DNA from: Sulfurospirillum sp.
Lineage (GTDB): Bacteria; Campylobacterota; Campylobacteria; Campylobacterales; Sulfurospirillaceae
Reading direction: 5' to 3'
NCBI GenBank assembly: GCA_016744795.1
Contig: JADGDR010000001.1
Location: forward strand, 186,001 to 250,000
DNA length: 64,000 nt
Part shown: one piece after another, positions 52,417 to 55,597 of the stretch
Layout of the letters: each line of letters starts with the position of its first letter
How positions within the stretch are numbered: the first letter of the stretch is position 1
Program-made: the position numbers and the translations under genes
The notes under the pieces: model-generated
What the model saw: only the letters and a program-made list of their open reading frames with translations
The model's database searches: none
What the model was told of the DNA's origin: nothing

Positions 52417-53751
52417 ATGAGCGGTAACACTACTGCGTCTAACAACAACCATAAGACGAACAATAAACACCACAGCAAGAGAACTCACGTTCCAGTAAAG
52501 GGTCATAAAATTGAAGACCTAAGAAACACACCACTAGACAAACTACTTGAAATAGCACTGGAGCTTAACGTTGAAAATCCTCAAGAGCTAAAACGTCAAG
52601 ATTTAATGTTTGAGATACTAAAATCACAAACAACTCAAGGTGGATTTATACTTTTTACTGGTATCTTAGAAATTACTAATGAAGGTTATGGATTTTTAAG
52701 AGCTTTAGATGCAAACTTCTCTGACACAGCAAATGACTCTTATGTTAGTGCAACACAAGTACGAAAATTTGCACTAAGAAATGGTGATATTGTTACTGGA
52801 CAAGTTCGTCCTCCTAAAGATCAAGAAAGATACAATGCACTTCTAAAAATAGAAGCCATAAACTATCTTCCTCTAAAAGATAGCAAAAAAAGACCACTCT
52901 TTGAAAACTTAACTCCACTTTTTCCAACAGAATCATTTAAACTAGAATATGAGCAAATGAAAAAAACTGGACGTGTACTAGACCTATTTACTCCAATGGG
53001 AAAAGGACAACGTGCTCTCATTGTTGCACCTCCACGAACTGGTAAAACTGAAATTATAAAAGAGTTGGCTCACGGAATAGCAAAAAATCATCCTGAATCA
53101 GAACTTATCGTTTTACTTGTTGATGAGCGTCCTGAAGAAGTAACAGATATGGAAAGGTGTGTTAGAGGTGAAGTTTTCAGCTCAACCTTTGACCAACCAG
53201 CAAATAATCATGTTCGTGTTGCAAACCTAGTAATAGAAAAAGCAAAAAGAAGCGTAGAAATGGGAAGAGATGTTATTATCTTACTTGATTCCATCACTAG
53301 ACTTGCTCGTGCGTACAATACAGTAACTCCTTCAAGTGGAAAAATACTCACTGGTGGTGTTGATGCAAATGCTCTTCACAAACCAAAAAAATTCTTTGGA
53401 GCTGCAAGAAATATTGAATTTGGTGGAAGTTTAACCATCATTGCAACTGCACTGATAGATACGGGAAGTCGTATGGACGAAGTTATTTTTGAAGAGTTTA
53501 AAGGAACAGGTAACTCTGAATTAGTTCTTGATAGAAATATTTCAGACAGAAGAGTTTATCCTGCAATCAATATTATGAAATCAGCAACAAGAAAAGAAGA
53601 ACTTCTACAATCTCCTGAAAAACTCCAACGTGTTTGGGCTCTAAGAAGTGCAATTAGCCAAATGGAAGACCTTGAAGCACTTAAATTTTTATATGCAAAA
53701 ATGTTAAAAACAGAAACTAATGAAAAGTTTTTGAATCAGATGAATGAGTAA
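52417..53751 (+). CDS. rho: Transcription termination factor Rho
   Basis: A 444-residue hexameric RNA helicase. The N-terminus is a 25-residue Asn/His/Lys-rich tail ([16 protein letters not shown]). The Rho N and RNA-binding domains follow ([21 protein letters not shown]), then the ATPase with PPRTGKTEI (Walker A), [28 protein letters not shown] (Walker B) and [10 protein letters not shown]. The tail of low-complexity residues is typical of variable Rho N-termini. It ends in a hairpin shared with the small convergent lipoprotein gene. Confidence 0.96.
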
Positions 53752-53932: not shown

Positions 53933-55597
53933 TTGTCCCAAGTACTAGCACTAAAATATCGTCCAAACTCATTTGATAAACTCATAGGTCAAGATGCTGT
54001 AACACAAACTCTTACACTTGCTCTTAACCAAAAAAGACTCTCTCACGCCTACCTTTTTTCAGGTCTTCGTGGAAGTGGAAAAACCTCAACTGCTAGGATT
54101 TTTTCTAAAGCTCTAGTTTGTGAGCAAGGTCCAACATCAACTCCATGCGAAGTGTGCGAACACTGCAAAATGGCAAATGAGAATAGACATATAGATATCA
54201 TAGAAATGGATGCAGCTAGTAGCAGAAAAATTGATGATATAAGAGACTTAATAGAACAGACAAAATACAGACCAAATAGTGCTAGATATAAAATATTTAT
54301 CATTGACGAAGTTCATATGTTAACAAAAGAAGCTTTTAATGCACTTTTAAAGACATTAGAAGAGCCACCAGAATTTGTCAAGTTCATACTAGCAACTACT
54401 GACCCTCTTAAACTTCCAGCGACTATACTCTCTCGTACTCAGCACTTTAGATTTAAACAAATTGCAAATATTGACATAGTACACCACCTTTCTCGTATAC
54501 TAAATTTAGAAAATGTGGAGTACGAAACAGATGCATTAGAAATGCTTAGTCGTGCTGGTAATGGATCATTAAGAGATACTCTAACTTTGTTAGATCAGGC
54601 TATCATATTTTCTAATGGAAAAATAACTCCTGAAAAAATAGCCTCTATGCTTGGACTACTTGACCCCAAGCAATTAGAACTAATCTTTGATACTATTTTG
54701 AAAAGTGATAGAAAAAAGCTTATAGAAATTGTAAAAGAGTTACAAAATTACGAATGTGAAGTAATCATAGATGAGCTAATAGCCTTTTTGAAAGAGTCCT
54801 TCTTTAACTCAGATGGTAGATTTTCAACTCTTATAACGGAAAGATTTTTTAGAATATTAAGTGAGTCTAAAAATCTTCTATTTTTAAATGCTGACAATGG
54901 TTTTGTACTGACACTTCTGTTTTTTAAAATGCTTGAAGCAATGAATATTAAAACCATAGAAGATATGGTGAACTCTTTAGAGGGTGAAAAATTTAGAGTC
55001 CCAAAAGTAGAGCAAATTACACAAACTCATACCCCAGAGCCTGAGCATATTAAAGAAATAGTAAAAGAAGAAATTCCAAAAAAACCAATCCAGCCAGAGA
55101 TAATCCCTGAACCTTTACATGTAAAGGACAAAGGAGCTGAACTTTTTTGTGAACTTCTAGTAAAATTAGAAGATAGAAGTCATGAACTTGCAACTTGTTT
55201 TAAAAATTATATTGAGTATACTAGTTACGACAATGAAACACTTACATGGGCATCTTCAGCAGATGAAGAGCATAAAAAAACTCTAAAAAATGCTTATCCT
55301 ATCATTAGACAGTTTGTCCAAGAAATTTTTGGAATAGACACTCAAATCAAGATGAGCCAAGGCGAAAAAAAAAAGCCAATAGATAATTCTAGTCCCAACG
55401 ATAATAGCTCTTCGATAATAGAAAAATTAGAGTTTAATAACCCTAATGAAGGCTCAAATACAGAGAGTTGTGTATCTGGTCACATAACAGCTGATAAAAA
55501 AGAATCTGAAGTCAAAGAGATACTAAACGACCCTTTTGTAAAAAAAGTACAAGAGATGTTTGAAGTAAAAAATATAAAAATATATCCTAAAGTTTAA
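53933..55597 (+). CDS. dnaX: DNA polymerase III subunit gamma/tau
   Basis: A 554-residue clamp-loader ATPase. It starts at TTG 53933 with AAAAGG upstream. It has LFSGLRGSGKTST (Lys50 in Walker A), zinc cysteines Cys63, Cys72, Cys75 and Cys78, FIIDEVHMLTKEAFNALLKT (Walker B) and sensor LATTDPLKLPATILSRTQHF. The C-terminal region (about 380-554) is low-complexity and carries an A10 run at codons 478-481. A slip by one base either way gives a stop within four codons, leaving a product of 482-484 residues. The full protein would be tau-like. Confidence 0.95.
   Translation: MSQVLALKYRPNSFDKLIGQDAVTQTLTLALNQKRLSHAYLFSGLRGSGKTSTARIFSKALVCEQGPTSTPCEVCEHCKMANENRHIDIIEMDAASSRKIDDIRDLIEQTKYRPNSARYKIFIIDEVHMLTKEAFNALLKTLEEPPEFVKFILATTDPLKLPATILSRTQHFRFKQIANIDIVHHLSRILNLENVEYETDALEMLSRAGNGSLRDTLTLLDQAIIFSNGKITPEKIASMLGLLDPKQLELIFDTILKSDRKKLIEIVKELQNYECEVIIDELIAFLKESFFNSDGRFSTLITERFFRILSESKNLLFLNADNGFVLTLLFFKMLEAMNIKTIEDMVNSLEGEKFRVPKVEQITQTHTPEPEHIKEIVKEEIPKKPIQPEIIPEPLHVKDKGAELFCELLVKLEDRSHELATCFKNYIEYTSYDNETLTWASSADEEHKKTLKNAYPIIRQFVQEIFGIDTQIKMSQGEKKKPIDNSSPNDNSSSIIEKLEFNNPNEGSNTESCVSGHITADKKESEVKEILNDPFVKKVQEMFEVKNIKIYPKV
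55365..55374 (+). repeat. dnaX: A10 run inside dnaX, candidate slippage site
   Basis: Ten A residues in the sense strand (GAA AAA AAA AAG in frame). Adding one A leads to A-N-R-stop; losing one leads to S-Q-stop. The same design makes gamma by transcriptional slippage in Thermus thermophilus dnaX. Confidence 0.7.

Follow-up and report, generated by a model that had tools for sequence, protein, structure and literature searches.

The dnaX gene of our window, the 64,000-nucleotide stretch of DNA analysed here, contains a run of ten adenines (A10) followed closely by stop codons in both other reading frames. We consider it likely, judging from the sequence, that this run is a programmed site at which RNA polymerase slips, as in Thermus, with a γ-like DnaX as the outcome; very probably the single dnaX gene gives rise to two forms, one full-length and one tail-less, a conclusion for which there are no RNA or protein data. 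For the phylum, we find it quite likely that Campylobacterota have repeatedly evolved interchangeable recoding devices at the homologous dnaX junction, each of which would yield a tail-less DnaX: transcriptional slippage on runs of A9-A12, represented by the genus of the window; −1 shifting at CCCCAAAG, accompanied by a covarying hairpin; and a prfB-like, Shine-Dalgarno-driven +1 shift in Arcobacteraceae, part of Sulfurovaceae and others, with five genomes in which the arrangement is inverted.

It has long been argued whether the short DnaX (γ) is a real, selected component or a peculiarity of E. coli. Relatives appear to have other frame-shifting signals at this position, suggesting that the short form is important; because these putative signals are repeated and mutually exclusive at one domain boundary, they amount to strong comparative evidence of a need for a tail-less DnaX in this phylum. 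γ thus becomes testable as 'τ minus the polymerase-binding tail', and the phylum would supply a natural set of solutions to one problem, some of them transcriptional and others ribosomal.

The gene lies directly downstream of rho (52417-53751). Its product matches the NCBIfam Campylobacterota dnaX equivalog (NF006280/PRK08451), scoring 758 bits where the cut-off is 572, and has Pfam matches to the clamp-loader ATPase and lid. The features discussed below are as follows.

53933-55597, + strand: dnaX, DNA polymerase III τ/γ subunit, TTG start, 554 aa
55130-55360, + strand: folded domain in a τ domain-V-like position, codons 400-476, AlphaFold2 pLDDT ~94
55365-55374, + strand: A10 run, proposed slippage site, codons 478-481 (GAA AAA AAA AAG)
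55369-55375, + strand: in-frame heptamer A_AAA_AAG within the A10 run, a −1 ribosomal slip site of the E. coli type
55379-55504, + strand: disordered linker, codons 483-524, AlphaFold2 pLDDT <50, absent from the predicted short form
55380-55382, + strand: TAG stop reached after loss of one A, predicted product 482 aa ending in KKSQ
55384-55386, + strand: TAA stop reached after gain of one A or a −1 ribosomal shift, predicted product 484 aa ending in KKKANR
55508-55594, + strand: conserved C-terminal tail DPFVKKVQEMFEVKNIKIYPKV, codons 526-554, absent from the predicted short form

The original prediction had placed the run at codons 478-481 and had worked out the consequences of slippage on it, and both are exact. 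The ten adenines are flanked by G on the 5' side and GCC on the 3' side and span the codons for E478, K479, K480 and K481; an extra A leads to A-N-R-stop (484 aa) and one fewer to S-Q-stop (482 aa), compared with 554 aa at full length, such that the two other frames are closed 2 and 3 sense codons past the run. The gene is a single ORF of 554 codons; its zero frame does not end at the A10, and the two-ORF layout known from some other dnaX genes is not met. We propose that RNA polymerase slips at the A10 to generate dnaX mRNAs with A9, A10, A11 and so on, of which those in frame would be translated into a full-length, τ-like DnaX of 554 aa and those out of frame would terminate within 2-4 codons, yielding a γ-like DnaX of 482-484 aa. 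In E. coli cassettes, 9 As cause a shift of 40% and 11 As one of 63% (PMC3711429). We stress that slippage itself, its transcriptional nature and the ratio of the two forms are inferred here.

In the AlphaFold2 model the A10 begins two codons past the end of the folded domain; the disordered linker that follows is variable in the dnaX alignment, while the alignment columns of the tail are occupied in 156 of 163 genes and the model places helices at residues 523-543. The short form would still have the ATPase of the clamp loader, the part used for oligomerisation and the folded domain-V-like region, but neither the linker nor the conserved tail. In E. coli τ, residues 622-643 bind the tail of Pol III α and the globular part of domain V binds the fingers (PMC4703070). 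By position, the lost tail corresponds to this α-binding segment, and we propose it as the Pol III α-binding peptide; this role is inferred only from its position and length relative to E. coli τ. If it is correct, a tail-less DnaX made from the same gene would result in clamp loaders with fewer polymerase-binding tails. Homology searches do not settle the matter: hhalign against E. coli τ 497-643 aligned only VKKVQEMF with IQTLRRFF (P 0.63, not significant), the best Foldseek matches were to SirA, DciA and DnaA-I type folds (E 0.003-0.06) with none significant for E. coli τ, and HMMER against the PDB linked neither domain V nor the tail significantly to E. coli τ.

Given the AT-richness of the genome (the GC content of the window is 29%), the run by itself is no proof. 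The original prediction had cautioned as much by pointing to A9 runs elsewhere in the window, and rightly so: there is one other A9 on the + strand (1929-1937) and there are four T9. Longer runs are scarce. A pattern search of both strands of the 2.68 Mb genome found four A10/T10 sites, of which two look intergenic, one lies in a frame-broken ORF and one is that of dnaX, the sole A10/T10 of the genome inside an intact gene. The predicted genes of the 415 kb contig C7 contain 136 A8, 18 A9 and one A10 (that of dnaX), compared with ~134 A8, ~39 A9 and ~24 A≥10 when synonymous codons are shuffled within each gene; coding runs of A≥10 are thus depleted ~24-fold (1 observed, ~24 expected). Such depletion of long A runs usually indicates that slippage does harm (PMC1088944). 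The dnaX A10 is beyond chance, an exception to the genome's avoidance of such runs. The other A10 in a coding region, at about position 1257 of locus L127 (G000:C3:1-3300), is in a membrane-protein gene beside a pheA-like gene, and the frame changes at the run; a pseudogene, phase variation and slippage rescue are alternatives that we leave unranked.

Within the genus the run is conserved. All three complete same-genus dnaX genes have it at the same alignment column, as A10 in the window and as A10 and A12 in the others, with stops in both other frames 1-6 codons downstream; in the A12 sister species A_AAA_AAA takes the place of A_AAA_AAG. Loss of the run among close relatives had been named beforehand as an observation that would refute slippage, and this refutation was attempted and failed within the genus, while outside it the expectation of conservation does not hold, the run being patchy. 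As a control we traced coding runs outside dnaX between reciprocal-best-hit genes from the same three genomes, at ~81% protein identity: none of eight tests of A9 runs retained even at least 8 As, and 12 of 41 A8 runs were retained in the main comparison. Three further same-genus assemblies (G002, G004 and G005; loci L006 and L007) are without most of dnaX and stand outside the comparison. In two of these the contig begins ~30 codons past the position of the A run, and the gaps are possibly assembly breaks near the homopolymer. The dnaX of a sister species (G003, locus L005) has a second long run, A9 at codon 260, in the clamp-loader core, where no other of the 182 genes surveyed has one. A sister genome also contains an intergenic A14 (G001:C10:34573-34586), longer than any coding run seen.

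The survey comprised 182 distinct Campylobacterales dnaX genes, with some tests made on the first 163 only; the window protein served as the guide for dividing each gene into five parts (core, linker 1, domain-V-like part, linker 2 and tail). Runs of A≥9 occur in linker 2 of 26 genes, and the other parts, with eight times as many codons, account for only 4 (one in the core, two in linker 1, none in domain V and one in the tail); for A≥10 the counts are 13 in linker 2 and 0 elsewhere. In the first 163 genes, 24 A≥9 runs in linker 2 were observed versus 10.6 expected, a number that 0 of 1000 synonymous shuffles reached, and no excess over this null was seen outside linker 2. The linker-2 runs are present in GC-rich dnaX genes too (0.51-0.59), and in two genomes with such run-bearing genes A9/T9 occurs just 5 and 7 times genome-wide. 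The farther of the two off-frame stops lies a median of 5 codons after the runs, compared with 13 codons at random linker positions in the same genes, and each off-frame stop taken separately is closer than the null (P ~0.004). This enrichment of stops in both frames fits what transcriptional slippage needs; a −1 ribosomal shift needs only one. A held-out set of 46 genes from two families added 6 more A≥9 runs, all in linker 2. The run is absent from most relatives, sister genera included, and run-bearing tips require ~20 changes on a FastTree tree, which indicates mostly separate gains and losses. Many of the relatives are metagenome assemblies in which homopolymer errors could make or mask frame breaks, a caveat of which the single-ORF run-bearing genes are independent. 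Taken with conservation in the genus, the enrichment in linker 2, the excess over the synonymous null and the close stops in both frames lend support to the suggestion of a γ-like subunit made by slippage.

An unlikely but possible alternative is that the transcript is uniform and that programmed −1 ribosomal frameshifting of the E. coli type at A_AAA_AAG makes the 484-aa form. The heptamer is in the right frame with the −1 stop three codons on (55384), and the only tRNA-Lys genes found, with 30 of 34 tRNA places scanned, are UUU, as in E. coli; because of these two features, a −1 shift would yield the same 484-aa, γ-like product. Some relatives also appear to have other ribosomal signals at the same dnaX site. 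E. coli, however, uses a Shine-Dalgarno sequence and a stem-loop as stimulators, and the three same-genus genes have neither a conserved upstream Shine-Dalgarno (AAGGCG, AAAACG and AAAGCG in the three species) nor a conserved downstream hairpin. Moreover, the A12 sister lacks the AAG at the site, and a ribosomal shift needs just 7 bases and one stop, whereas the runs are 9-12 long with stops enriched in both frames. The window protein would also be cut after its domain-V-like region, not before it as in E. coli. Our preference for transcriptional slippage does not make the two mechanisms exclusive, since they may add up.

The remaining explanations dispense with a programmed product or place the slippage in the DNA. 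We regard it as improbable that the run is a neutral homopolymer, situated in a linker that is disordered and rich in Lys and in a genome that is AT-rich: AAA makes up 85% of Lys codons, the linker is variable and the run is gained and lost along the tree, but this reading has to contend with the depletion of coding A≥10, the retention of the run in the genus when control A8 and A9 runs are considered, the excess over the synonymous null, the runs in GC-rich genes and the closeness of both-frame stops. More doubtful still is a hotspot of replication slippage (phase variation), by which the genomic run length, and thus the length of DnaX, would differ among cells. Here the A12 of one sister and the fact that replication slippage also mutates long A runs (PMC1088944) are set against a long frame that is open in all three assemblies despite their differing run lengths, and against the ribosomal-type signals at the same site in other lineages. 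τ is an essential replication protein, which likewise speaks against switching it by phase variation.

Transcriptional slippage, the reading we prefer, has precedents in dnaX. The Thermus thermophilus gene slips at an A9 (PMC1088944, PMC5009743), and the window gene resembles it in having A≥9 about seven-eighths into a single ORF, near stops in both frames and a predicted short form without the C-terminus; it differs in that its genus belongs to an unrelated phylum, has A10-A12 runs that are patchy in the order, and has not had its slippage measured. In Chlorobium, Chloroherpeton and others, dnaX is split into two ORFs with 7-10 As (PMC3711429), a similar poly-A length of ~10, but there the long form needs the slip, whereas in our single-ORF gene the short form does. 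The relative G054 (locus L293) has this two-ORF layout, its zero frame stopping directly past an A10 and the conserved tail lying in another frame. A second candidate, G037 (locus L294), was rejected: its frame is interrupted within the core, in a way that suggests an assembly error or a pseudogene. Slippage in dnaX is thus already known from Thermus, Chlorobi and others (PMC1088944, PMC3711429, PMC5009743), and the window's A10 would extend this kind to a further phylum. Our literature search, which left out most subscription papers, found no report of dnaX recoding for this phylum and none of a +1 frameshift in dnaX; within the papers searched, the +1 shift in dnaX appears to be new, as does the interchange between transcriptional and ribosomal devices at a single junction in one phylum.

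Many dnaX genes without the run have in linker 2 an in-frame AAG GAN NNN NCC, in which three bases separate a Shine-Dalgarno-like AAGGAG from the CCC or GCC codon that follows, and then a +1-frame stop. In the +1 frameshift of prfB, a Shine-Dalgarno sequence stands three bases ahead of the slip codon. The relatives' motif has this geometry, and differs from prfB in lying in dnaX with CCC or GCC as the slip codon; it is absent from the dnaX of the window genome. The first 163 genes contain 21 copies of the motif, all of them within linker 2 and none among the 80,710 codons outside it, and 17 of the 21 have a +1 stop within four codons, versus 0.5-0.7 expected; in a larger realignment one match falls just past the border between linker and tail. 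Since the motif had been found by inspection, we checked it on the 46 held-out genes, where it is present in 28, again only in linker 2, with a +1 stop within four codons in 25 and the zero frame ending right after the motif in the other 3. This set is not phylogenetically independent, because its families are shared with the discovery set. Loci with the motif, a near +1 stop and no A run include L051, L057, L058, L261, L268, L275, L339, L347, L365 and L367-L373, and there are others. No gene among the 182 and the held-out set has both the A run and the +1 motif. From these observations, we hypothesize that a +1 ribosomal frameshift is the probable source of a γ-like DnaX in the run-less genes. 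Among the tRNAs scanned in the window genome (30 of 34 places; the relatives were outside the scan), the only tRNA-Pro is UGG, which is known as the isoacceptor that shifts on CCC (PMC4519876). In five genes (L241, L280, L342, L349 and L358) the layout is inverted: the zero frame stops just past the motif and in all five the tail is encoded in the +1 frame, exactly the one that a +1 shift would enter. Full-length DnaX would need the shift in these genes, and their current annotation is probably too short.

A third pattern is of a putative −1 type. CCCCAAAG is found 10 times, only in linker 2 and mainly in one genus (f4/g8), followed after 6 bases by a 6-bp tetraloop hairpin with compensatory changes, at a fixed distance, and by a −1 stop. 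Carriers of the sequence and hairpin include L034, L226, L232, L233, L234, L236, L242 and L286, together with L289, which has CTCCCAAAG; the pattern is that of a predicted −1 frameshift like that of E. coli with a different slip site. A general CCN AAG signal for −1 shifting was considered and rejected, the 14 occurrences not exceeding the synonymous null (7.2 expected, maximum 17), and among such candidates only the putative signal of CCCCAAAG with its hairpin in one genus stands. Genes lacking a long run show only a weak excess of A_AAA_AAA/G heptamers that are in frame and have a −1 stop (13 versus 8.3, P 0.04).
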